Source: Gammaproteobacteria bacterium UBA4475 (GTDB lineage Bacteria; Pseudomonadota; Gammaproteobacteria; Pseudomonadales; Azotimanducaceae). Taken from it: a stretch of DNA of 12,881 nucleotides. The notes under the pieces are model-generated. The model saw only the letters and a list, made by a program, of their open reading frames with translations. It ran no database searches and was not told the DNA's origin. Both the position numbers and the translations under genes were made by a program. The stretch lies in the NCBI GenBank assembly GCA_002389265.1, contig DGOD01000152.1, positions 8,567-21,447 on the forward strand, read 5' to 3'. Position 1 is the stretch's first letter. Each line of letters opens with the position of its first letter. Shown piece after piece: positions 2 through 11,597 of the stretch.

Positions 2-1255
2 CAAATTGCCCGGCGGATCGACCAGCAAATCGCCCGCGGTCAAGATCCCGGCCTACTGGCTGGTCTGCCGGTGGCGCACAAGGATCTCGCCGAGACTCAG
101 GGCATTCGTACGACCTTTGGCTCGCGGTTATTTGCCGACAATATCCCCAAGCACAACGCCTTGATTGTGCAGCGCATGCTGAATGCCGGCGCAGTCACCC
201 TCGGCAAAACCAATACGCCGGAATTTGGCGCTGGCTCGCAGACCTTTAATGAAGTCTTCGGCACCACCTTGAATCCTTATGATCTCACCAAGACCCCAGG
301 CGGCAGCTCAGGCGGCGCCGCCGCGGCATTGGCCGCACGCCTCGTCGCCCTCGCCGACGGCAGTGACATGGGGGGATCGCTGCGTAACCCTGCAAGCTTT
401 TGTAATGTGGTCGGGTTCCGTCCCTCTCCGGGTCGAGTACCCACTTACCCCAGCGATATGGCCTGGTTCAACGTCCCTGTCGTTGGTCCCATGGCGCGCA
501 CGGTGGAAGACTGCGCCTTGTTTATGGCGGCGATCGCCGGACCAGACTCGCGGGTACCTATTGCCTTGAACGCCCCTGGCACAGATTTTTTAGAGCCCCT
601 AAAACGGGATTTTACGGGCGCAAGGATCGGCTTCAGCCCTGATTTTGCCGGCCAGATACCCATAGCTCGCGAGGTCAGCGAGGTCATCAACAACAGCGCC
701 GGTGTATTTGAGTCTCTGGGCTGTCGCTTGGATGAGACCTGCCCGGATTTCGCCGATGCGGATAACATCTTCAAAACCTTGCGCGCCTGGTCCATGGCCG
801 CCGCTCACGGCCCGCGCCTCAAACAGCATCGCGATCTGTATAAGGCCAGCTTGATCTGGAATATCGAGCAGGGACTCGCCTTAACTGGCGCCAACATCGC
901 CACCGCCGAACAAATGCGGACGCGTCTGTTCCAGCGGGTTAGCACCTTAATGCACGAGGTTGAATTTTTGGTTTTACCCGTGTGCCAGGTCACGCCTTTC
1001 AGTGCCGCCGTTGAATACCCCACTGATATTGAAGGTGTGCCGATGGAGACTTATATCGACTGGATGAAGTCTTGTTACTATCTGTCTTCAATCGGCCTGC
1101 CCTGTATCTCGGTTCCCTGCGGTTTTACGCCACAAGGCCTACCCGTGGGTGTGCAAATTGTCGGTCGTCCACATGCCGATTTCAGCGTGCTGCAGCTGGC
1201 TTACGCCTATCAACAAGCCACGCTGCACTGGCAAGCACTACCCAAGCTAGCATGA
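2..1255 (+). CDS. Amidase-signature family hydrolase, 5' end cut by the window
   Basis: This is an amide-bond hydrolase of the amidase-signature family, probably cytosolic. The frame is open from base 2 with no stop, and the residues before the GTG at 71 (LLAGLPVAHKD) match the usual lead into the catalytic lysine, so the true start lies outside the window. Numbering from that GTG, the Ser-cisSer-Lys triad is visible: Lys4 in HKD, the cis-serine in GGSSGG (77-82), and the nucleophile Ser103 in GSDMGGSLRNPA. The C-terminal GLPVGVQIVGRP block is also typical. About 418 residues are visible, and a family member is usually 450-500. The substrate is unknown: members range from general amidases to GatA, and no gatB or gatC is in view. 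The gap to the next gene holds the promoter and riboswitch of the next operon, so it ends its own transcription unit. I see no clear terminator. Confidence 0.93.
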   Translation, partial: QIARRIDQQIARGQDPGLLAGLPVAHKDLAETQGIRTTFGSRLFADNIPKHNALIVQRMLNAGAVTLGKTNTPEFGAGSQTFNEVFGTTLNPYDLTKTPGGSSGGAAAALAARLVALADGSDMGGSLRNPASFCNVVGFRPSPGRVPTYPSDMAWFNVPVVGPMARTVEDCALFMAAIAGPDSRVPIALNAPGTDFLEPLKRDFTGARIGFSPDFAGQIPIAREVSEVINNSAGVFESLGCRLDETCPDFADADNIFKTLRAWSMAAAHGPRLKQHRDLYKASLIWNIEQGLALTGANIATAEQMRTRLFQRVSTLMHEVEFLVLPVCQVTPFSAAVEYPTDIEGVPMETYIDWMKSCYYLSSIGLPCISVPCGFTPQGLPVGVQIVGRPHADFSVLQLAYAYQQATLHWQALPKLA

Positions 1256-1419
1256 GCCATGAGCCGCACTCATTCAGCCATGCGCGCCGCTATGTACTCG
1301 GCTATGCACAGGTCCGCTCATCAGACGTCAATAATTAACTAAGCACCCCGGCCGTTCTGGCCTGTGGCCTTGACCCGCTTGACCTGACATGTCGAGTTAA
1401 CTCATGACGCCAATTAACG

Positions 1420-1448
1420 CTGACTCAGTCACAAAATCTGCGTATACT
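1420..1448 (+). promoter_or_regulatory. Sigma70-like promoter of the thiamine-uptake operon
   Basis: A -35 CTGACT (1420-1425), a 17-base spacer and a -10 TATACT (1443-1448) are visible. Transcription would start near 1455, within a base or two of the 5' end of TPP aptamer helix P1. That agreement supports the call. A perfect 10-bp palindrome, GAGTTAACTC (1394-1403), lies just upstream and could be an operator, but nothing else supports that. Confidence 0.6.
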
Positions 1449-1453
1449 GCTTA

Positions 1454-1542
1454 CGTCCTTAGGGGTGGCATTGCCTGAGAATCCGCTTTAGCGGTAAACC
1501 CTAGAACCTGATCCGGTTAATACCGGCGTAGGAAAAGGTGCG
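1454..1542 (+). promoter_or_regulatory. TPP riboswitch aptamer (THI element)
   Basis: This RNA aptamer binds thiamine pyrophosphate. The conserved cores are present in order: AGGGGTG (1461-1467), CTGAGA (1475-1480), GAACCTGAT (1504-1512) and TACCGGCGTAGGAAA (1521-1535). Visible helices are P1 (1457-1460 with 1535-1538, extendable to 1454-1456 with 1540-1542 around a bulge), P2 (TAGGG 1460-1464 with CCCTA 1499-1503), a very short P3 (GGC/GCC, 1467-1475), an optional P3a hairpin CCGC-TTTA-GCGG (1483-1494), and P5 (CCGG 1513-1516 with CCGG 1523-1526). It precedes a TonB receptor gene by about 60 nt, so it should lower expression of the three-gene operon when TPP is plentiful. Confidence 0.95.
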
Positions 1543-1571
1543 CAATACATCTCATCACACGTCTTATTGAT

Positions 1572-1604
1572 ACCGGGTCTCTTACTTTACGACGAGAGAG
1601 ACTC
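1572..1604 (+). promoter_or_regulatory. Riboswitch expression platform: start-sequestering hairpin
   Basis: The last 30 nt before the receptor ATG form a hairpin: GGGTCTCT (1575-1582) pairs over eight positions, one of them G-U, with AGAGACTC (1597-1604), around a 14-nt loop. The 3' arm covers most of the weak purine-rich ribosome site and runs to the base before ATG, so the fold should block translation. The 5' arm can instead join an 8-bp pairing, 1572-1579 with 1510-1517, the 5' strand of aptamer P4/P5. That pairing would be available only when the aptamer is unfolded. This fits translational OFF control by TPP. No U-tract follows, so transcription termination is unlikely here. The mechanism is inferred from base pairing only. 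Confidence 0.6.
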
Positions 1605-3719
1605 ATGCCAAACACAACTAACAACACCCCAATACCCATCGGGTCCTATGGACCACGCCTGCTCAGCGGTCTGTTGCTGCTCGGTTGTTGCAGCATCGTT
1701 GCGGCGCCTGCGCTCAGCGCTGAGCTTGAGGAAGTCGTGGTTATGGCTGACTATCGGGACCTCAATGACGCTCAGTTAGCCACCAGCATCACCGTCATAT
1801 CAAGCGCCGTGGTCAGCCAAAGGGCCGCCCAACATTTCGAAGAGATCATCAATAGCATTCCCAACTTCAATGTCTCTGGGGGTACGGGGCGCAGCCGTTT
1901 TTTCCAAATCCGTGGTATCGGCGAGCGCAGCCAATTCATTGAGCCCATCAATCCATCGGTAGGCTTGCTGATAGATAACGTCGACTACAGCGGCGCAGGC
2001 TCTATCGCGACCATGATGGACGTTGACCAGATCGAGGTGCTGCGTGGCCCCCAGGGCACGCGATATGGCGCCAATGCCTTAGCTGGCTTAATCAACATTA
2101 CAACCCGAAACCCGGAACCGGAATACGCCACTAGCCTGAAAGCCAATGTCGGCGACTACGGCCATCGCACCCTGGGCTTGACGACCACAGGGCCCATCAC
2201 TGCACTCAGCAGTTTTCGCCTGGCTGCAGAGACCCATCAGAGCGATGGCTACTATACCAACAGCTTTCTCAACCGCGACGATGTTAATCAGCGAGACGAA
2301 ACCAGTTTGCGCGGCAAATTGCAGCTGATCTCCGCGCCGGGTGCAGATCTCATCTGGGAGGCCCTCCTGACTCTGGCGAACACCAACGTCGACAATGGCT
2401 ATGACGCCTTCACATTGGACAACTCTCGCACCACCTTGTCTGATCAGCCGGGCCATGATCGTCAGGAATCCACGTCGCTGGCACTAGACAGCACCCTGCA
2501 CCTGGCGTCTGTGGACCTGCAATTACTCGCCAGCCTGGGGAATACCGACAGCGAGTATGGTTATGACGAAGACTGGACCTTTGCTGGCATCCATCCTGAC
2601 GGCTACAGCGCCTTCGACGATTATCTTCGTCAGCGGGACACGTTGAACCTTGAGGCGCGAGTCATCTCGAATCAGCCGATCAAAACCGGTTCATTAAGCA
2701 CTGACTGGCTGGTGGGTATCTACGCCTTGCAAACCCGTGAAGATCTGACTCGGATCTATACCTACGACTCAGACTTCAACAGTGAATTTGACTTCACTAA
2801 CCTGGCTATATTTACCCAATTGGATACCACCATCACCGACCAGTGGCAATTCAGTACGGGTTTGAGATTGGAACAACGAGACGCCAGCTATAATGATTCT
2901 CAAGCGGTGGCGTTTAACCCGAAGGAAAACTTTTGGGGCGGGCGCATAGCCCTGCAATACTTTCCGAATGATGGCAAAATGCTCTATGCGAGTTTGTCTC
3001 GAGGCTACAAGGCCGGTGGTTTCAATACTGACGGCTCCCTTGATGCAGATCTGCGCCAGTTCGATGCAGAATATTTGGTTGAGCTGGAACTGGGCGCGAA
3101 ACTGAGTCTTGCAGACGACACCCTGCAACTCAAAGCGGCGGTCTTCTATGATCAACGTCGAGACCAGCAGGTCAAAAGCTCGCAACTACGAGTCCGAGCT
3201 AACAATAGCACTGAGTTTGTCGAATATCTGGGGAATGCCGCACGCGGCACGAACCGCGGCTTCGAGCTGGAAAGCCGCTGGCTAACCCACGAAAACCTCA
3301 CCCTGTTCGCGAATATCGGTCTATTGCAAGCCCGCTTCGATGAGTTCGTTAACGAGGCAGGAGAAAATCTGGCGGGACGCGATCAGGCTCAGGCGCCAGC
3401 CTATACCTATAACCTCGGCGCCAATATCGACATAGGTCACTGGCACACCAGTGTTTCTATTGATGGCAAAGACGAATTCTATTTTTCTGATAGACACAGT
3501 TTAACAAGCACAGCTTACACCCTGTTAAATACCAATATCAGCTACGTTCAAGCGCGCTGGAAATTGAGTTTTTGGGGCCGCAACCTAACCAACAAAGATT
3601 ACACAATTCGTGGCTTTGGCAGCTTTGGTAACGATCCACGTAAGGGGTATATCACCGAATCCTATGTCCAATACGGCGAACCCCGAATGATTGGTGTCAG
3701 CGCTGAGTACGAATTATGA
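1605..3719 (+). CDS. TonB-dependent outer-membrane receptor, probably for thiamine or a precursor
   Basis: This is a 704-residue outer-membrane beta-barrel that imports a ligand with energy from TonB-ExbB-ExbD. The N-terminus has a hydrophobic stretch (about 19-37) ending in ALSA, with likely cleavage after residue 39. A TonB-box-like LEEVVVMA (41-48) follows, then the plug domain with its hallmark DQIEVLRGPQGTRYG (141-155) and GLINITTRNP (161-170). The barrel ends in YEL, an aromatic-containing terminal strand as expected. No ligand can be read from the protein itself. The thiamine assignment rests on the TPP riboswitch in its leader and on the two genes behind it. The stop overlaps the next start by an ATGA, which implies translational coupling. 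The start at 1605 is set by the leader hairpin, which ends directly before it. The ribosome site is weak (GAGAG), consistent with riboswitch control. Confidence 0.9.
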   Translation: MPNTTNNTPIPIGSYGPRLLSGLLLLGCCSIVAAPALSAELEEVVVMADYRDLNDAQLATSITVISSAVVSQRAAQHFEEIINSIPNFNVSGGTGRSRFFQIRGIGERSQFIEPINPSVGLLIDNVDYSGAGSIATMMDVDQIEVLRGPQGTRYGANALAGLINITTRNPEPEYATSLKANVGDYGHRTLGLTTTGPITALSSFRLAAETHQSDGYYTNSFLNRDDVNQRDETSLRGKLQLISAPGADLIWEALLTLANTNVDNGYDAFTLDNSRTTLSDQPGHDRQESTSLALDSTLHLASVDLQLLASLGNTDSEYGYDEDWTFAGIHPDGYSAFDDYLRQRDTLNLEARVISNQPIKTGSLSTDWLVGIYALQTREDLTRIYTYDSDFNSEFDFTNLAIFTQLDTTITDQWQFSTGLRLEQRDASYNDSQAVAFNPKENFWGGRIALQYFPNDGKMLYASLSRGYKAGGFNTDGSLDADLRQFDAEYLVELELGAKLSLADDTLQLKAAVFYDQRRDQQVKSSQLRVRANNSTEFVEYLGNAARGTNRGFELESRWLTHENLTLFANIGLLQARFDEFVNEAGENLAGRDQAQAPAYTYNLGANIDIGHWHTSVSIDGKDEFYFSDRHSLTSTAYTLLNTNISYVQARWKLSFWGRNLTNKDYTIRGFGSFGNDPRKGYITESYVQYGEPRMIGVSAEYEL

Positions 3720-3994
3720 CTGATTCAGCACACCTGTTGACGTCCGTCGATATCAGCCTATACCCGCTTACCGATGACTACATTCCTGCCGTCGCAGACT
3801 TTATTCAGCGAATCAGTGCCTATCCTGACATCACTGTTAGGCGTAATGATTTGAGCACTCAGTTGTTTGGTGAGTTCGATGCCATCATGGATCTACTGAA
3901 AATTGAAATTCGTCATAGCTGGCAACAGTGGGGTAAGGGCGTGTTAGTGATCAAGTTTCTGGCTGGCGATTTGCAGGGTTTAAAGGATCTATAA
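3716..3994 (+). CDS. Single-domain YkoF-like thiamine/HMP-binding protein
   Basis: A 92-residue protein resembling the YkoF/MTH1187 thiamine-binding fold (Thiamine_BP, ferredoxin-like). The family signature is readable as VDISLYPL (11-18), DYIPAVADFI (21-30), NDLSTQLFGEFD (44-55) and VLVIKF (76-81). In Bacillus subtilis, YkoF has two such domains in about 200 residues and binds thiamine and hydroxymethylpyrimidine. This protein has one domain, so it probably oligomerises. There is no signal peptide or membrane segment, so it should be cytosolic. Its start overlaps the receptor stop (ATGA) and its stop touches the next start (TAAATG), so it is locked into the operon. It may capture ligand delivered by the permease, or buffer or sense it. 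The family call is from motif memory without a profile search. Confidence 0.8.
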   Translation: MTDSAHLLTSVDISLYPLTDDYIPAVADFIQRISAYPDITVRRNDLSTQLFGEFDAIMDLLKIEIRHSWQQWGKGVLVIKFLAGDLQGLKDL

Positions 3995-4612
3995 ATGCTT
4001 CAAACCCTGTTAGATCAATTTCTGCAAAACAGTGGCCTTGAACTCCTGGCAGTGGTTCTGGCTGTGGCTTATTTGCTGCTGGCGGTTAAGGAGAATGATT
4101 ACTGTTGGCATGCCGCGTTTTTCTCAACGCTGATATTTCTCTATCTGTTTTGGCAGGTCCGACTTTATATGGAATCAGCACTGCAGATATTCTATCTGGC
4201 AATGGCGGTCTACGGCTGGCAGCAGTGGCGCCAGGAGACTGACAACAAACCACGACTGGCGATCCAACGTTGGTCATGGCTGCGTCATGGCCTGGTAGTT
4301 TCCTGCGTATTGCTGCTGAGCGGTATTTCCGGGTTGCTCTTGAGTCACTACACCGACGCTCAACTACCTTACCTCGACGCTTTCACTACCTGGGCCAGCA
4401 TTGTCACCACCTACATGGTGACCCAAAAGGTTCTCGAGAACTGGGCCTACTGGCTGCTGATTGATAGCGTCTCGATTTATCTGTATCTGGACCGCGCCTT
4501 GTATTTCACGGCGTTGCTATTTTTGATTTATATTCTGATCATCGCTTATGGTTGGTCTACCTGGCGGCAGCGATACAGCCAGCAGTCAGTGGCTGACTCC
4601 GCGCGGCGCTGA
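3995..4612 (+). CDS. pnuT: PnuC-family inner-membrane transporter, probably a PnuT-type thiamine permease
   Basis: A 205-residue, strongly hydrophobic protein with about seven membrane spans, the usual size for the PnuC family of vitamin facilitators (nicotinamide riboside, riboflavin, thiamine). Family marks are KENDYCW (32-38), QIFYLAMAVYGWQQW (64-78), the NWAYWLLID motif (149-157) with its Trp pair, and a final YGWSTW (185-190). PnuC proteins are facilitators that rely on trapping of the ligand by phosphorylation after entry. No kinase gene is nearby. Substrate choice within the family is inferred from context: a TPP riboswitch and a YkoF-like neighbour favour thiamine or a pyrimidine precursor over nicotinamide riboside. 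The start follows the previous stop with no gap, with AAAGGAT (3982-3988) inside the previous gene as ribosome site. No terminator is visible after it. Confidence 0.88.
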   Translation: MLQTLLDQFLQNSGLELLAVVLAVAYLLLAVKENDYCWHAAFFSTLIFLYLFWQVRLYMESALQIFYLAMAVYGWQQWRQETDNKPRLAIQRWSWLRHGLVVSCVLLLSGISGLLLSHYTDAQLPYLDAFTTWASIVTTYMVTQKVLENWAYWLLIDSVSIYLYLDRALYFTALLFLIYILIIAYGWSTWRQRYSQQSVADSARR

Positions 4613-4715
4613 GAAAAACCTAATAACCACCGTCAAATATCCCACATTGACTGTGCCTTTGGAGCCTGCCATTTGGTTTAATAGGTCTTTTGTTTCAATC
4701 AACAGGTATCGGCTT

Positions 4716-5510
4716 ATGCAGGATTTATTTTCTATCAAGGGCAAGGTTGCCTTAGTCACCGGCGGTTCACGGGGCATCGGCGAGATGATCGCCGCAGGAT
4801 TTTTAGCCCATGGTGCTAAGGTTTATATCAGCTCACGCAAGGCTGATGTCTGCGATGCCACGGCTAAACGCCTGATGGCGCAGTTTGGTGGTGAGTGCAT
4901 TTCAATGCCCGCGAATCTGGCAGAGGTCGACAGTATTCAAGCCTTCGCTAATGATCTTGCCAGCCGCGAATCACAACTCGATATTCTGGTGAATAACGCC
5001 GGTGTCTCCTGGGGCGCAAGCCTGGACGACTTTCCTGAGGTTGGCTGGGACAAGGTGATGGACACGAACGTCAAGGGGGTATTTTTCCTGACTCAAAAGT
5101 TGCTGCCCCTGCTGCGCACGTCAGGCAATGCTGAGGACCCCGCCCGAGTCATCAATATTGGCTCTGTTGACGGCCTGAAAACCCCAGCCTTCGAGACCTT
5201 TTCTTACGGCCCATCCAAGGCCGCAGTACATCACCTGACTCGGGTTCTGGCGGCGCATCTAACGAAAGAACATATCATCTGTAATGCCATCGCTCCCGGC
5301 CCCTTCCCTACCTGGATGCTCAGCACCGGTGTTGGCGGCGGCGGCGATACGGATATCGACTGGCGTACTGTCGGCAGAAGCAATCCCCGTGGCCGAGTAG
5401 GCACCATGGAAGATATCGCCGGGTTAGCCATTTTTCTGAGCTCCCGTGCTGGAGCCTATACCGTCGGCGAGGTTATTACCTGTGACGGCGGCGCCACCTA
5501 CGCTCGCTAA
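4716..5510 (+). CDS. RhlG-like short-chain dehydrogenase/reductase
   Basis: A 264-residue classical SDR, an NAD(P)H-dependent oxidoreductase. Cofactor motif TGGSRGIG (15-22), structural NNAG (93-96), catalytic Ser150, Tyr164 and Lys168 (YGPSK), and a C-terminal CDGG are present. The pattern FSIKGKVALVTGGSRGIG, LDILVNNAGVSWGA and ARVINIGSV closely resembles Pseudomonas RhlG, a beta-ketoacyl reductase-like SDR once linked to rhamnolipid synthesis. The substrate is not proven and could be another beta-keto or hydroxy compound. The start is ATG 4716, with CAGG 10 bases upstream. A longer in-frame reading back to 4548 would overlap the permease gene and add 56 residues that do not belong to the fold. 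The 103-base gap to the permease has no clear terminator, so read-through from the thiamine operon is possible. Confidence 0.88.
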   Translation: MQDLFSIKGKVALVTGGSRGIGEMIAAGFLAHGAKVYISSRKADVCDATAKRLMAQFGGECISMPANLAEVDSIQAFANDLASRESQLDILVNNAGVSWGASLDDFPEVGWDKVMDTNVKGVFFLTQKLLPLLRTSGNAEDPARVINIGSVDGLKTPAFETFSYGPSKAAVHHLTRVLAAHLTKEHIICNAIAPGPFPTWMLSTGVGGGGDTDIDWRTVGRSNPRGRVGTMEDIAGLAIFLSSRAGAYTVGEVITCDGGATYAR

Positions 5511-5548: not shown

Positions 5549-5609
5549 TAGCCACTATCCTGGCAACTATCTGGTAATAAAATGGGCTGGCACGCTGCAG
5601 TAGTGGCTA
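5549..5609. repeat. 9-bp inverted repeat between convergent genes
   Basis: TAGCCACTA (5549-5557) and TAGTGGCTA (5601-5609) are perfect inverse copies around a 43-base spacer. The second arm includes the stop codon of the minus-strand gene. It could help end transcription of the two converging genes, but there is no U-tract and the loop is long, so the function is uncertain. Confidence 0.35.
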
Positions 5610-6176
5610 CTGATTGCGCGGAAACGGATATTCGGCGCCTGCAGGTAAATCCACCTCAAAGGTATTCAGTGACATACAGACCATGGTGTAGAAACCCGCG
5701 ACGTTAATAATTTCGGCGACCCCTCGCTCACCAAAAAATTCCACCGCTGCAGCAAAGGTGGCGGCACTCACTTGGCGCTGAGTCAGCAATTCATGGCATA
5801 CCGCATAGGTCAATCGATCACCCCTGTCATCAAACGCCGGCATCTGCCCAGCCTTTATAGACGCAATGACATTATCCGGAAGACCCGCCTGACGAGCCAT
5901 GGGTTCGTGTGCATACCATTCAAACTGAGCTTGCCAATCCGCTCCGATCATGAGAATCGCCAGCTCGATATAGCGGCGGTCCACGGCTGTTCGAAACCGA
6001 AACATACCGCCCAAACCATTCAACCGGTCACCCATCTCCGGGCTCAACACCCAGATATCAAACGGCCCGCCGATATGACCATCGGTCACACCTTGACGAC
6101 CTTTTGCAATTTTATCGAAAAGTACTTTTTCTTCATCGCTGAAGTCGGCATAACTGCGTCGAGTAAGGCGTGACAT
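5607..6176 (-). CDS. Carboxymuconolactone decarboxylase (AhpD-like) family protein
   Basis: A 189-residue, mostly helical protein of the CMD/AhpD-like superfamily. The core is visible as RYIELAILMIGADWQAQFEWYAH (68-90), where the Glu and His of EWYAH are the conserved pair, followed by a second helical block, FFGERGVAEIINVAGFYTMV (147-166). The AhpD redox pair CxxC is absent, so this is not an AhpD-type peroxidase partner. It is closer to the gamma-CMD or decarboxylase-like branch, whose reactions are often unknown. I chose ATG 6174-6176. A TTG eight codons upstream is open but has no spaced ribosome site. It converges with the RhlG-like SDR, with about 96 bases between the stops. It appears to be a single-gene unit, with a large hairpin (6299-6350) upstream separating it from the heat-shock gene. 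Confidence 0.85.
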   Translation of the reverse strand: MSRLTRRSYADFSDEEKVLFDKIAKGRQGVTDGHIGGPFDIWVLSPEMGDRLNGLGGMFRFRTAVDRRYIELAILMIGADWQAQFEWYAHEPMARQAGLPDNVIASIKAGQMPAFDDRGDRLTYAVCHELLTQRQVSAATFAAAVEFFGERGVAEIINVAGFYTMVCMSLNTFEVDLPAGAEYPFPRNQ

Positions 6177-6298
6177 GATTGATTTCTTTGTTGAGGCCAA
6201 CCACCAACATGACAGACCAGCGGCATCAACGTCAATACGACATCCTCGTTTTGCCTAGCTAATCAGCCACATCATACAGCGCAGAGGTTTTTCGCCAG

Positions 6299-6350
6299 TC
6301 GGCCAACCACAAGCCGGCCTTATCATCAAGGCGAGCTTGTAGTTGGCCGA
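6299..6350. terminator. Long near-perfect hairpin downstream of the small heat-shock gene
   Basis: Arms 6299-6314 (TCGGCCAACCACAAGC) and 6335-6350 (GCTTGTAGTTGGCCGA) pair at 15 of 16 positions, and inside them GCCTT (6317-6321) pairs with AAGGC (6328-6332) around ATCATC. The whole 52-base element folds on itself. It sits about 30 nt beyond the stop of the minus-strand heat-shock gene, so a terminator or 3'-end protecting role is likely. The minus strand has no U-tract after it (CTGGCGAAAAACC), so it is not a textbook intrinsic terminator. A dispersed repeat unit is an alternative. Confidence 0.5.
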
Positions 6351-6380
6351 TTTACAGTTCAGCAGGTCAGATGAAAATCT

Positions 6381-6869
6381 TTAGTCGATTTTGATCTGAT
6401 GACGTTTTTCCTGTTCCGACTTCTTAACGACGACTTCCAGCAAACCATTCTTGAATTTAGCAGACACGACTTCTGCACCGGCCGCTGCAGGTAGTGAAAT
6501 CGTTCGCGAAAATTTGCCTTCGACAATTTCCTTGCGGTAATAGTCATCCCTATCATCCACTTCAACCTTGCTCTTCTCACCCTTGATCGTCAGGGAATGG
6601 TTCGACATGGTGACCTCAAGATCTTTTTTATCGACACCCGGAATTTCAGCCCGCACAATAATTTGATCATCGCGCTCGACCACATCAACGGTTGGCAACT
6701 TGTTTTCGAACTGCATCAGCTCGCGAAAGGGCAGCAATTTTCTCGACCATAAAGTCGGAAAATCTTCATCAAATAAACGGTCAAACATATCCAGAGAGGC
6801 TGGATAACGACGAGTTGACTGCGGCTCTACAGCTTTTTTAGACACGGACTTTTGTATGCTATTAGCCAT
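6381..6869 (-). CDS. Small heat-shock protein, Hsp20/alpha-crystallin family
   Basis: A 162-residue ATP-independent holdase chaperone of the cytoplasm. The alpha-crystallin domain runs from about residue 58 to 150: LPTVDVVERDDQIIVRAEIP (58-77), the LEVTMSNHSLTIKGEK strands (84-99), GKFSRTISLP (118-127), and the hallmark AKFKNGLLEVVVKK (137-150). The N-terminal arm is about 57 residues. The C-terminal tail, HQIKID, carries a weak form of the I-x-I oligomerisation motif. ATG 6867-6869 has a strong ribosome site, AAGGAG (6878-6883), seven to eight bases away. Upstream are a candidate -10 GATAAT and an FNR/Anr-like box, listed separately. I see no good sigma32 promoter even though rpoH is in the same window. 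The hairpin at 6299-6350 follows it. Confidence 0.95.
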   Translation of the reverse strand: MANSIQKSVSKKAVEPQSTRRYPASLDMFDRLFDEDFPTLWSRKLLPFRELMQFENKLPTVDVVERDDQIIVRAEIPGVDKKDLEVTMSNHSLTIKGEKSKVEVDDRDDYYRKEIVEGKFSRTISLPAAAGAEVVSAKFKNGLLEVVVKKSEQEKRHQIKID

Positions 6870-6916
6870 GAAACATTCTCCTTGAGATGATTTTTATGCG
6901 CTTTTTGGGAACGCCT

Positions 6917-6957
6917 ATTATCAAGCTTATGAGTCTCACGCCCCTGATTCAGATCAA
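6917..6957 (-). promoter_or_regulatory. FNR/Anr-like class II promoter of the small heat-shock gene
   Basis: Read on the minus strand, TTGATCTGAATCAG (6957-6944) matches the FNR/Anr consensus TTGAT-N4-ATCAA at nine of ten fixed positions. Twenty-one bases later is GATAAT (6922-6917), one mismatch from the -10 consensus. A start near 6910 would place the box centre (6950.5) about 40.5 bases upstream, close to the -41.5 position where FNR-family activators contact polymerase. The first two T's of the box are the last bases of the upstream terminator's T-tract, so the promoter begins where the previous unit ends. The activator itself is not in the window. Confidence 0.5.
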
Positions 6958-6982
6958 AAAAAAACCCCGCTGAAGCGGGGTT
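6956..6982 (-). terminator. Intrinsic terminator of the DUF4136 lipoprotein gene
   Basis: On the minus strand AACCCCGC, loop TTCA, GCGGGGTT forms an 8-bp stem (6963-6982). It is followed by a run of T's that starts within the stem and continues to 6956, nine in all. It lies about 20 bases beyond the TAA at 7002-7004, so it ends the lipoprotein transcript and insulates the heat-shock promoter directly downstream. Confidence 0.92.
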
Positions 6983-7001
6983 CGAAAAAGTCAGAATCAA
7001 C

Positions 7002-7589
7002 TTATTGCGGCGGGAAACCGACAATGATTTTATCTACCATACGGATGACATTTTCCTCTGAAAAATTCTTCTGGGTCAGGGCCACCGAACGCCAACCACG
7101 CCATATCAATCGATCCTGAGTTCTGTCGACAAGATCAATGATCAGCACGGCTTCCTCATAGGTTTCCACATCGGGCGTCGCGAATTGGATCGAGCGACGC
7201 CAGTATGAATCATAATTGCGATAGCCGAGACCGATCCCATAACCTATTGCACGAATTCTATCCTTGCTGGTGGTGTGATAGGTCACCAACATATCCGGAT
7301 TATCGTTATCCTCGACGTAGCCGCGACCCACCAATGCGCTGAGTACCGCTGCCTTAACACGCTCGTCCATAATGGCGCTATCGAGTATGGGGTCCTCAAC
7401 CTCTTGCACCTCTTTCGGAGCCCAGGCGAAGGATTGGTATTGCGAAAAATCAACATCTTTCGCCGATTCACTCCGAGGCGATATTGCGCAGGCATTCAGC
7501 ATCAGCAAGCCCACTAACAGGCAGACGCGCTGCAGCGCTGTTGTGCCGGTCATAGGGGTTTTAAAGAACACCAGATTAATGTGCGACAT
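7002..7589 (-). CDS. DUF4136-type lipoprotein
   Basis: A 195-residue predicted lipoprotein. The N-terminus has a hydrophobic stretch, VCLLVGLLML (22-31), and a lipobox LNAC with the modified cysteine at residue 34, so the mature protein should be membrane-anchored in the periplasm. The mature region matches the DUF4136 pattern: DFSQYQSFAWAPK (47-59), a DERVKAAVLSALVGRGYVE helix, NPDMLVTYH (96-104), EEAVLIIDLVDRTQDRLIWRG (144-164), then a C-terminal VDKIIVGFPP. The molecular role of the domain is unknown. ATG 7587-7589 has AGAGGAT (7596-7602) as ribosome site. The later Met13 would give a tidier signal peptide but has no such site. A strong terminator follows and an FNR/Anr-like palindrome lies about 75 bases upstream. 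Confidence 0.82.
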   Translation of the reverse strand: MSHINLVFFKTPMTGTTALQRVCLLVGLLMLNACAISPRSESAKDVDFSQYQSFAWAPKEVQEVEDPILDSAIMDERVKAAVLSALVGRGYVEDNDNPDMLVTYHTTSKDRIRAIGYGIGLGYRNYDSYWRRSIQFATPDVETYEEAVLIIDLVDRTQDRLIWRGWRSVALTQKNFSEENVIRMVDKIIVGFPPQ

Positions 7590-9399: not shown

Positions 9400-10185
9400 T
9401 CAGTAACTGGCGCCCATGCCCGCACGCACGTCGTTGTTGACCCCATACTGAGGTATGGGATAGCGCAGACCATTTTTAGACAACGCCTCCAAACCGGCAA
9501 TTACCTTCGGCAAGTAAGATGGCGGGATTGCCATGAGCAATTCATCTTCCATGACGCCGCCATACCGGCGTTCCGCAAAACAGGGAATTGACAGGCTTGG
9601 CTCACCGGTCTTCAACGCTCGCCCCCATGAATCGGCACATGACGACTCACCCACACAGCCCCAATCGAGCTTCTTATAACCGGTCCACTGCAAGCCATTG
9701 ATAAACAGAATCATCTGCGCCGGTGTTGCGTAAATCAAACAAATATCCGGTGGGTTGAGTCGGCCAGCGGCTAGCGGGCTGACCGCCATAGCCTCATATT
9801 GGCCGTATGTCAGGACGCTCATCTCAGCCTGATGCGCCGCCGCATCTTCAGCCGTGGCATACCAGACGCCCTGCATACGATCACCCGACAGCCATTGCTC
9901 ATCTCGCGGATGCAAACCGATGACGGTACCGCACTGAGCACCCACCAGGTCGTCCATGGTAATCCCTACCGTCCAACCATTACGACTCGCCTGACCGACT
10001 ATCTGGTCCGTTGTATGGATATCCTTCGGCCGTCTAATCCGTGGCACAGCTTCCATCTCAGCCCGCGTTTTGAACATCTTCATGCCAATGGGTGTCGTCC
10101 GCAGCCTCAGCAGTCGGTTTAAGTCATTCACCAACATGGGCAGGTCCAGCACTGATTGATCTGTCGCGATCATCGTCTCGGTCAT
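9400..10185 (-). CDS. DUF169 family protein
   Basis: A 261-residue soluble protein of the DUF169 (COG2043) family, whose biochemical role is not established. Recognisable blocks are TTPIGMKMF (30-38), a middle GWTVGITMDDLVGAQC (70-85), DWGCVGESSCADSWGRALKTGEPS (174-197), and IPCFAERRYGGVMEDELLMAIP (200-221). Five cysteines (85, 149, 177, 183, 202) are present. At least three lie in conserved blocks, which suggests metal or cofactor binding, but I cannot show that. The start at 10183-10185 has an excellent ribosome site, AAGGAG (10193-10198), about seven bases away. It follows the GPH symporter gene by 23 bases on the same strand, so the two are probably one operon and it may act on what the symporter imports. 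Confidence 0.85.
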   Translation of the reverse strand: MTETMIATDQSVLDLPMLVNDLNRLLRLRTTPIGMKMFKTRAEMEAVPRIRRPKDIHTTDQIVGQASRNGWTVGITMDDLVGAQCGTVIGLHPRDEQWLSGDRMQGVWYATAEDAAAHQAEMSVLTYGQYEAMAVSPLAAGRLNPPDICLIYATPAQMILFINGLQWTGYKKLDWGCVGESSCADSWGRALKTGEPSLSIPCFAERRYGGVMEDELLMAIPPSYLPKVIAGLEALSKNGLRYPIPQYGVNNDVRAGMGASY

Positions 10186-10208: not shown

Positions 10209-11597
10209 CTAAATATTTTTGGCACTGGTCTTATCTGCCAGTCGCGCCTGCTTGCGGTGCACCAACTTCTCGACTCGCGAATGCATCTTCGCATTCAAAG
10301 GCCAGGTCACGCTCAAATACAGCGCAACGATAAAGAGTACGGTCGGCACGATGGCATACAGTATGCCGAGCCACATCAGTTCGCTCGGGCCATTATCCAC
10401 CCGCGCCACTGCAGAGTATCCCACCAGTCCCAGAATCGGCAAAGATAAGCCTCCCACAGAGGCTGCACATTTGGTCATAAATCCGAGTATGGCAAAATAG
10501 CTTGCCGGGCGTGAGCTGCCCGACCTGATAGTATCAAGATCAACCACATCGGCGAGCATAGCCCGCGGAATATAGGCGAAGGCACCGAAACAAAAACCCT
10601 TGGCAGCAAACAACACATAAAAGAAGGTGATATCGCCATAGTCGAGCATAAAGCACGCGATGGATATCAGACTCACCAACACCATCGCCCCCGCCAGCGC
10701 CTGATGCTTACCCATACGGGTCGCGATACGATCCCATATGGGAATCGCGGCAAGGCCAACCCCAAAATAGATGACATACAGACGTCCCACACTCGCGGCA
10801 CCGATATAGTCTTGAATAAAGAACAGGGACAGCGTGTTGCGAAAATTTTCGCCGCTGGCAATCAGCAATTCAATGACCAGCAAGCGGAAAAATAGCTTGT
10901 TCTTGTACATATTCTTCAATGAATTCACCAAAGAAACCTTTGGCGCATTGAAGTCCTGCACTTCTGGCACACGCCAGATGACCAGCATTGCGGTTACCGG
11001 TAATAATGTGACAATCACCCATGAAAAGTTACTGAGAACAAAACTCGCGCTGTTATCGTGCCACAGCTCTTCCGATAGCAAGACGATGCCGGAGGCCATC
11101 ATCAGCCCGATCATTACATACTTTTCTCGCGCCGACTGGATCATGGTGCGTGTATGGTAATCCGCCGACAGTTCCATCCCCCACGCAGCATAAGGCAGGC
11201 CGAAGATCGTGGTGGACGCCCTCAACAGCAGGTAATAGAACCCCAGGTAATACACAGTCGCCCCAGGAGAGGGATTTAGCAGCATCCAGACCGCAACGGC
11301 ATAGATGGGCACCCCTACTAACAACCATGGTCGACGGCGACCCCAGCGGGTCTGGAAACGATCACTTAGAAAACCCATCAATGGATCAGTGACGGCATCA
11401 AAAATCGCAGCAGAAAAAATAACCAAGCCAATCAAGCTCAGCGACAAGCCAACCTCGGTAGAATACAGGCGTGGAATCCAGACGCTTAGGGGATAACCTA
11501 TGATAGCGAGGGGCAGACTGACGGAGCCGTAGATCCAGGCGGTGGATCGGCTTAACTTCGGTTTATTGGTCGTCTTATCGGCAACGGCTTCAGACAC
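10209..11597 (-). CDS. GPH-type MFS symporter (glycoside-pentoside-hexuronide:cation family)
   Basis: A 462-residue inner-membrane secondary transporter with about twelve membrane spans. The GPH signature is clear in the second-third helix region: FDAVTDPLMGFLSDR (66-80) followed by TRWGRRRPWLL (83-93). A second family block, AMLADVVDLDTIRSG, lies in the C-terminal half. Relatives couple sugar or glycoside uptake to Na+ or H+. Many environmental GPH proteins are uncharacterised, so the substrate is open. The start is GTG 11595-11597, the only in-frame start before helix 1, with AGGGG (11608-11612) about ten bases upstream. TATAGT (minus strand, 11632-11627) is a possible -10 without a clear -35. 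It is the first gene of a probable two-gene unit with the DUF169 gene. Confidence 0.9.
   Translation of the reverse strand: MSEAVADKTTNKPKLSRSTAWIYGSVSLPLAIIGYPLSVWIPRLYSTEVGLSLSLIGLVIFSAAIFDAVTDPLMGFLSDRFQTRWGRRRPWLLVGVPIYAVAVWMLLNPSPGATVYYLGFYYLLLRASTTIFGLPYAAWGMELSADYHTRTMIQSAREKYVMIGLMMASGIVLLSEELWHDNSASFVLSNFSWVIVTLLPVTAMLVIWRVPEVQDFNAPKVSLVNSLKNMYKNKLFFRLLVIELLIASGENFRNTLSLFFIQDYIGAASVGRLYVIYFGVGLAAIPIWDRIATRMGKHQALAGAMVLVSLISIACFMLDYGDITFFYVLFAAKGFCFGAFAYIPRAMLADVVDLDTIRSGSSRPASYFAILGFMTKCAASVGGLSLPILGLVGYSAVARVDNGPSELMWLGILYAIVPTVLFIVALYLSVTWPLNAKMHSRVEKLVHRKQARLADKTSAKNI

Follow-up and report, generated by a model that had tools for sequence, protein, structure and literature searches.

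Organization of the locus

The window, i.e. the whole stretch of 12,881 nucleotides that was analysed, carries a TPP riboswitch followed by three closely packed genes, all on the forward strand. The aptamer (THI element; 1451..1551, +) matches RF00059 over the full length of the model (1-105/105) with 70.3 bits for a cut-off of 54.3 (E 1.7e-12). Covariance-model scoring thus accepts the element that the original prediction had recognized by its letters. No other Rfam model than RF00059 exceeds its cut-off in the window, and a search of the genome to which the window belongs (G000) gave this single TPP riboswitch match.

The first gene (1605..3719, +) encodes a TonB-dependent outer-membrane receptor of 704 aa, omr1/OMthi-like, in which both the barrel (PF00593, 105.6 bits) and the plug (PF07715, 66 bits) domains are present. 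Among NCBI receptor models, those of siderophore receptors rank first, TIGR01783 reaching 159.7 bits, under its cut-off of 223.5. The second gene (3716..3994, +) encodes a YkoF-like single-domain protein of 92 aa (PF07615, 26.8 bits, cut-off 21), and the third (3995..4612, +) a PnuC-type permease of 205 aa, most likely a thiamine permease (PnuT). The latter belongs to the PnuC family by PF04973 (166.7 bits) and TIGR01528 (72.6 bits, cut-off 42.45). The identities first proposed for the three genes are therefore all recovered by domain models (PF00593 and PF07715, PF07615, PF04973). Their overlapping or abutting arrangement was also read directly in the DNA: receptor and YkoF-like genes overlap by ATGA (AATTATGACTG), and the TAA of the YkoF-like gene directly abuts the ATG of pnuC (TAAATG; CTATAAATGC). 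The next gene after pnuC encodes a short-chain dehydrogenase/reductase (4728..5510, +; PF13561, 162.5 bits).

The leader of the operon

Just 5' of the aptamer lies a weak promoter-like site, CTGACT-17-TATACT (1420..1448, +; 9/12 matches); the region 1250-4800 holds five such sites, against 3.5 +/- 1.9 in shuffles. The same hexamers precede the aptamer in the relatives G003 and G004, whose leaders are near-identical to that of G000 and hence not independent, and are missing in G005.

Between the aptamer and the receptor gene, the segment 1572..1604 (+) is a probable expression platform as judged by motif count: ACCGGGUC can pair with the aptamer segment GAUCCGGU (1510-1517), and the leader hairpin includes the purine-rich stretch immediately 5' of the receptor start codon. 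The motif CCGG[GA]TC is present in 16/27 leaders, for a mean of 0.155 and a maximum of 2 in 200 shuffles (27 of 28 leaders were used, G223 being left out). The leader hairpin by itself reaches a z of only -1.77, and in the 27 leaders the ribosome-binding stretch is no more paired than in shuffles. Indeed, at least four paired positions are found in 27/27 leaders, and in shuffles keeping the last 21 bases this count averages 23.9 and goes up to 27/27. We rejected the paired-base count as evidence for Shine-Dalgarno sequestration because the shuffles reach the same values; only CCGG[GA]TC counts. We infer that the leader exerts its control at the ribosome-binding site.

The YkoF-like protein

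PF07615 is matched at E 0.01 by 30 of the 32 members of alignment A2, the window's protein among them. The AF2 model of the latter (pLDDT 85.6) consists of one b-a-b-b-a-b domain, ferredoxin-like. Sequence comparison with B. subtilis YkoF (1s7h) gives an E of 0.0011 over residues 12-68, and the SLYP and STxxxG motifs are common to both proteins (PDB 1s7h, 1s99, and 1sbr with thiamin). The folds are similar, with a TM of 0.62 and 24% identity between 1sbr_B and the model, but the Foldseek E is only 0.022 (rank 22). In the fold search that gave spliceosome proteins, the 50 matches listed do not include B. subtilis YkoF; the spliceosome matches themselves were set aside, this arrangement being a common one.

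Disparities with YkoF concern the layout: the B. subtilis chain has 200 residues with two matching stretches, whereas the 92-aa protein of the window is a single domain beside PnuC and lacks this tandem organization. The B. subtilis protein is part of an ECF/ABC system; the original prediction of a route devoid of ABC transporter holds for the operon itself. The single-domain proteins TM0486 and SP2199 (PDB 1vk8, 2ibo) are 22 and 21% identical to the YkoF-like protein, on which the thiamine-binding model PF01910 scores 13.5 bits, below its cut-off of 24.9. No signal peptide is apparent by eye, and to this extent the cytosolic location first assigned to the protein is consistent with its sequence.

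Conservation of the trio and identity of the permease

We compared the locus with those of 58 relatives and of an even class-wide draw of 369 genomes. In the latter, receptor, YkoF-like and PnuC genes stand in the same order at 18/20 retrieved YkoF-like loci; one of these 18 trio loci (L166) has an extra open frame of 216 residues between the receptor and the YkoF-like gene. Among the relatives, 14 genomes bear the trio and 18 the YkoF-like gene, which is apart from receptor, permease or riboswitch in G014, G015 and G028 and by itself in G037 and G055. In relatives where the three genes are not assembled at one site, 17/20 fetched TPP riboswitch loci start with a gene for a receptor homologue, and two of the three exceptions end on the contig.

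The permease could in principle be a nicotinamide riboside transporter placed by chance in a thiamine-controlled operon, since TIGR01528, over its cut-off here, describes the nicotinamide riboside transporter PnuC, and other members of the family adjoin NadR-type kinases. We consider this very improbable: a TPP riboswitch lies 5' of all the class-wide trio loci with a leader present on the contig (16/16), which also upholds the constant association of trio and THI element that the original prediction had proposed to check, and the downstream kinase of the trio form, where present, is ThiK-like and not NadR-type. The permease aligns with structure 4qtn (E 0.00065). Its WxxWxxxD motif fails to tell a thiamine permease from one for nicotinamide riboside and was discarded as a substrate marker: in 36 proteins compared, several with trimmed start sites, the N variant occurs in E. 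coli PnuC, in G034, where the neighbour is a TPK, and in G045, as well as (by eye) at several class-wide trio loci, so that D/N does not track the neighbour kinase. As for genomic context, the link of PnuT to the TPP riboswitch is present in the window, and that to a kinase is found in 8/14 trio-bearing relatives and is absent here.

Thiamine synthesis genes and the cargo

A search of G000 (89.7% complete) found no ThiC, ThiE or TPK and no convincing ThiG. From these apparent losses the host appears to be a thiamine auxotroph, in line with the scavenging organism with thiamine gaps that had been proposed. In family f1, ThiC is present in only 2/37 genomes (G006 and G012), and the same two alone have convincing ThiG and ThiE. 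No convincing ThiG was found in the genus of the window, and ThiE gives there a single match of 27.8 bits, in G005. Class-wide, ThiC and ThiE are both absent in 11 of the 18 trio genomes, ThiE tracking ThiC exactly (absent 11/11 without ThiC, present 7/7 with ThiC). ThiC is missing in 11/18 trio versus 87/350 other genomes of the class (Fisher p 0.0017, uncorrected for relatedness). The trio is nevertheless not strictly tied to auxotrophy, 7/18 of its class-wide genomes having ThiC.

These distributions bear on the cargo. Two proteins of relatives (P0028 and P0046) are named "YkoF family thiamine/hydroxymethylpyrimidine-binding protein", and PMC10881298 lists ykoF as a B1/HMP-binding transport marker; both would suit an operon importing HMP, or a relative of HMP, with the YkoF-like protein binding it. 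This is extremely improbable, because in the absence of ThiE (unmatched in G000, one 27.8-bit match in the genus, absent from all 11 ThiC-lacking trio genomes) the cell would have no means of joining HMP to thiazole, and convincing ThiG is likewise not found in the genus. HMP import was thus rejected, ThiE and convincing ThiG being gone along with ThiC, and the words "or a precursor" in the original prediction have to be dropped: imported HMP would not be convertible to thiamine. Since the pyrimidine precursor is useless without ThiE, the imported compound is almost certainly thiamine, or one of its phosphates, rather than HMP.

The fourth gene and its absence from the window

The commonest fourth gene of the trio operon is a ThiK-like kinase. 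It is the next gene in 8/14 trio-bearing relatives (G001, G002, G005, G013, G025, G032, G039 and G048), being immediately 3' of pnuC in G001, G002 and G005, which belong to the genus of the window. It is also next in L022, and in G044 and G046 it follows PnuC without YkoF. Class-wide it comes next at 11/18 trio loci (67-186 bits), i.e. at 9/11 ThiC-lacking and 2/7 ThiC-bearing loci, the pattern that a salvage kinase would give. No same-strand kinase follows pnuC at the seven other loci (L166, L169, L170, L172, L173, L176 and L179); the contig of L166 ends after pnuC.

ThiK is used here as a loose name. The fourth gene of relatives has the CHxDL and DWE motifs in common with E. coli ThiK (TIGR02721). 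Six operon kinases score 42.6-88.8 bits with TIGR02721, far below its equivalog cut-off of 299, and in 4/6 the best NCBIfam model is GntI (NF041256), a different kinase with the same fold, also far under its own cut-off. TPK (PF04263) is found in only one of the 58 relatives (G034), where it comes after PnuC.

At the corresponding site of the window (4613..4727, +), directly after pnuC, the kinase gene is absent, and the dehydrogenase gene takes its place, as in the two closest relatives; in G005 the same dehydrogenase gene comes after the kinase. A search for a thiK remnant with 10 kinases gave a best E of 0.018 in the window and no match in 4613..4727. Nor was a thiamine kinase found in G000, G003 and G004 (89.7, 86 and 92% complete), where the best kinase-model matches are general APH proteins of 33-35 bits. 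Among the matches listed, three to the kinase model are in G000, and the two of them that we inspected (396 aa, and 476 aa with DUF6285) were rejected as ThiK by score and motif. ThiL exceeds its cut-off in 52/58 genomes, G001-G004 included, and was not found in G005 or in G000, where the only match (92 bits) lies inside a frame of 765 residues. The import route had been called complete; in this copy the step of trapping and activation is missing, neither TPK nor ThiK being found.

The loss of thiK could be costless if a kinase of another family phosphorylated thiamine in this lineage, or if TMP or TPP were taken up directly. The absence of thiK from all three genomes alongside the retention of ThiL in G003 and G004, the lack of a TPK match in G000, and two further trio-bearing genomes where no ThiK-like gene was found (G007 and G027) are in keeping with this idea. 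We hold it to be possible though doubtful: we know of no PnuC-type carrier that passes phosphorylated vitamers, and a kinase gene could, although this is unlikely, have been missed with an absent contig in all three incomplete genomes.

Comparison with known systems

Bacteroides has OMthi-PnuT-Tnr3 (TPK) operons under TPP riboswitches (PMC5613172). Like the window, they join a TonB-dependent receptor to PnuT under the riboswitch, and a recognisable thiamine ABC transporter is absent from these genomes. The differences are the YkoF-like gene between receptor and permease and the kinase, which is ThiK-like and not TPK in the relatives and absent from the window; no TPK gene was found in G000 to complete an OMthi-PnuT-TPK set of the Bacteroides type. 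In Shewanella oneidensis the TonB receptor SO2715 is likewise led by a TPP riboswitch (PMC2659441, PMC3400609), and pnuT, a predicted thiamin transporter (SO2713; PMC5955497), is two locus tags off. A TPP-riboswitch operon of Variovorax also contains a thiamine permease and a TonB receptor but, unlike the window, together with thiamine synthesis genes; the paper reports that ykoFEDC genes were not found (PMC10409787). Most parts of the operon are already known singly; what stands out is the YkoF-like protein and the absence of the kinase. In gammaproteobacteria the system corresponds to the OMthi-PnuT-TPK operon of Bacteroides, but it includes a YkoF-like protein and has a ThiK-like kinase where the latter has TPK.

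Proposed function

The three genes most likely bring the ready-made vitamin across both membranes, and the operon probably serves TPP-repressed thiamine import in a thiamine auxotroph by the following scheme. When TPP is scarce, the leader, through its aptamer, would permit translation of the receptor, presumably by control at the ribosome-binding site. The receptor would carry thiamine into the periplasm, and the permease would let it equilibrate between periplasm and cytosol by facilitated diffusion, the mode of action of characterised PnuT. The YkoF-like protein may bind cytosolic thiamine as a sink and carrier, keeping the net flow inward. In relatives the ThiK-like kinase, then ThiL, would give TMP and TPP; in the lineage of the window the kinase gene would have been lost from the operon and replaced by some substitute.

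A role of the YkoF-like protein other than a sink, i.e. regulation of the permease or the kinase by thiamine binding, seems unlikely, even if its single ferredoxin-like domain has a fold common to many small binding and regulatory domains; the sequence data tell neither role from the other. The scheme with a sink can be carried further. The YkoF-like protein would then be a cytosolic acceptor devoted to thiamine, pulling the vitamin in through a PnuT-type channel that is itself passive; in the lineage of the window it would have taken over trapping from the lost thiamine kinase, TMP then being made by an undescribed kind of thiamine kinase. We put this forward as a long shot.

According to PMC10881298, most bacterioplankton of aquatic habitats cannot synthesize vitamin B1. 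The cassette offers an import route that is well defined and open to test, clearly predicts thiamine and not HMP as the substrate, and includes a small soluble protein suited to binding measurement. That one lineage has lost the kinase points to a further thiamine kinase, a precise target for searches.

Conservation of the trio and of its riboswitch

The near-relative set comprised 58 genomes, including that of the window (G000). The YkoF-like protein is encoded in 18 of them, among which are all six genomes of the genus. For 11 of these 18 (G000, G002-G005, G007, G013, G025, G027, G032 and G039) the order is riboswitch, TonB receptor, YkoF-like gene and pnuC. The operon genes are also there in G001, where the receptor is broken by a contig end, and in G048, where the parts are split over two contig ends. 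Looser arrangements exist as well: G015 keeps riboswitch, receptor and YkoF together with PnuC at another place, G014 has a YkoF-PnuC pair separate from a riboswitch-receptor pair, and in G028 YkoF is distant from the riboswitch of the genome and PnuC was not found. YkoF is solitary in G037 and G055, and ThiC, ThiG and ThiE are all present in both.

An even draw of 369 genomes of the class gave 20 with a YkoF-like match, the window's own being one of these; 20 loci were fetched from the other 19. The receptor, the YkoF-like gene and pnuC (i.e. the trio) lie on the same strand in 18 of the 20 loci, an additional open frame separating the first two in locus L166. The riboswitch lies 5' of the trio in 16 of these 18, and in the other two (L162 and L163) the contig stops within the receptor. 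At L175 and L177, which do not carry the trio, no riboswitch exceeds the cut-off. Thus in the class draw a THI element accompanies the trio at every checkable locus; among the near relatives, G014 provides a counter-example, its YkoF-PnuC pair being without the element.

One class-draw locus, L170 (contig C12 of genome G248), displays paired YkoF-like matches (97128-97352 and 98036-98284) on the same strand with about 0.7 kb between them, possibly a step towards a two-domain YkoF.

Possible pairing in the leader

Of 27 trio leaders, 16 have the conserved motif CCGG[GA]TC downstream of the aptamer and upstream of the start codon, against a shuffle mean of 0.155. In the window it lies at 1572-1579 and can pair with the aptamer stretch GAUCCGGU (1510-1517); alternatively it is one arm of a hairpin directly 5' of the start codon. 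These two alternative pairings would fit the way in which a translational off-switch commonly works. Taken alone, the hairpin of the window leader is not significant (z -1.77), and the ribosome-binding stretch is paired no more often than in shuffles.

Gaps in thiamine synthesis and the probable cargo

No ThiC was found in G000 or its genus, and just two of the 37 family genomes, G006 and G012, have it. Convincing ThiG (at least 324 bits) and ThiE (at least 160 bits) are likewise limited to this pair within the family, the matches of the others being weak (for ThiE a maximum of 47 bits, in G025). Auxotrophy thus appears to be ancient in the family of the window.

In the class draw, ThiC was counted as absent from any genome not among the 270 matching ones. 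It is missing from 11 of the 18 trio genomes versus 87 of the 350 others (Fisher p 0.0017, kinship uncorrected), two of the 11 being incomplete (G300, 84%; G396, 71%). Among these 18 genomes ThiE is missing from all 11 without ThiC and found in all seven with ThiC. A cell lacking ThiE cannot use HMP; the useful cargo is therefore almost certainly thiamine or one of its phosphates, which speaks against the "or a precursor" of the original prediction.

A ThiK-like kinase as fourth gene

The gene 3' of pnuC is frequently an APH-fold kinase resembling ThiK. Six such operon kinases were scanned: they score 42.6-88.8 bits with TIGR02721 (cut-off 299), and for four of them the GntI model, itself far below its own cut-off, outscores the ThiK model. 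The kinase gene follows pnuC in 8 of 14 trio-bearing relatives: three belong to the genus of the window (G001, G002 and G005), and the others are G013, G025, G032, G039 and G048. PnuC followed by a ThiK-like kinase also occurs in G044 and G046, both devoid of a YkoF-like gene, and at locus L022; for G007 and G027, the trio is present and a ThiK-like gene was not found. In the class draw, 11 of 18 trio loci have the kinase (67-186 bits) as the gene that comes next on the same strand; nine of these loci belong to the 11 genomes lacking ThiC and two to the seven with it.

For the window, G003 and G004, the place of the kinase is occupied by a short-chain dehydrogenase (SDR) gene (4728-5510, + strand, in the window; identity 98.8% with G003 and 97.7% with G004). 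In G005 the kinase comes first and then the same SDR gene, which remains close to the operon in G001 too. The ThiK-like search of G000, G003 and G004 gave general APH matches only (best 33-35 bits), and TPK was not found in these three genomes. ThiL is kept in G003 and G004 (288-290 bits), so TMP is presumably made there; a true ThiL was not found in G000, a genome 89.7% complete.

Further along the window, a 197-aa protein (5607-6200, - strand) has no Pfam match over cut-off, CMD and DUF3400 reaching 14 bits only; going by the first residues, G001, G003 and G004 have a similar gene close to the operon. A DUF169 protein (9400-10185, - strand; 142 bits) is adjoined by an MFS_2 sugar-type transporter (10209-11597).

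PnuC outside the trio

In those members of the family that do not have the trio, PnuC stands alone. A match to the ThiK-like model, mostly weak (39-114 bits), lies within 3 kb of it in 17 of 22 such loci, and the PnuC neighbour in G034 is TPK; this suggests that lone PnuC proteins may serve thiamine too. NadR-type kinase neighbours point instead to nicotinamide riboside. BLAST with the Salibacter protein placed such a neighbour at 14 loci, namely that of Salibacter itself and 13 with the lone PnuC of a relative (L059-L065, L067-L069, L074, L078 and L086), one of these in part only; a profile check covered two of the 14, L069 among them. The lone PnuC loci could possibly be a second thiamine or mixed-vitamin locus without a riboswitch of its own.

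In Salibacter halophilus, a member of the Bacteroidota, locus L021 carries YkoF-like, PnuC and NadR-type kinase genes in overlapping order (5980-7368), and no TPP riboswitch over the cut-off in 12.2 kb.

Relation to described systems and proposed working

Earlier papers describe OMthi, PnuT and Tnr3 controlled by TPP riboswitches in Bacteroides (PMC5613172), a TPP riboswitch for Shewanella SO2715 (PMC2659441), SO2713 as pnuT (PMC5955497), a Variovorax TPP operon holding a permease and a TonB receptor (PMC10409787), SAR86 clusters with omr1 close to a TDP riboswitch (PMC10881298), and MAGs with ThiL and omr1 yet without synthesis genes (PMC12236431). Among open-licence papers we found no description joining PnuT, YkoF, TonB and riboswitch, which is weak evidence of novelty. 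NCBI labels the protein of two relatives "YkoF family thiamine/hydroxymethylpyrimidine-binding protein".

Observations cover the aptamer, the order of the genes and the gaps in the genomes; each functional step is inferred. When TPP is scarce the leader would open; the receptor would pump thiamine across the outer membrane, the permease would equilibrate it and the YkoF-like protein would retain it in the cytosol, where the kinase, then ThiL, would complete the conversion. The thiamine uptake operon is real, conserved and mostly explicable.
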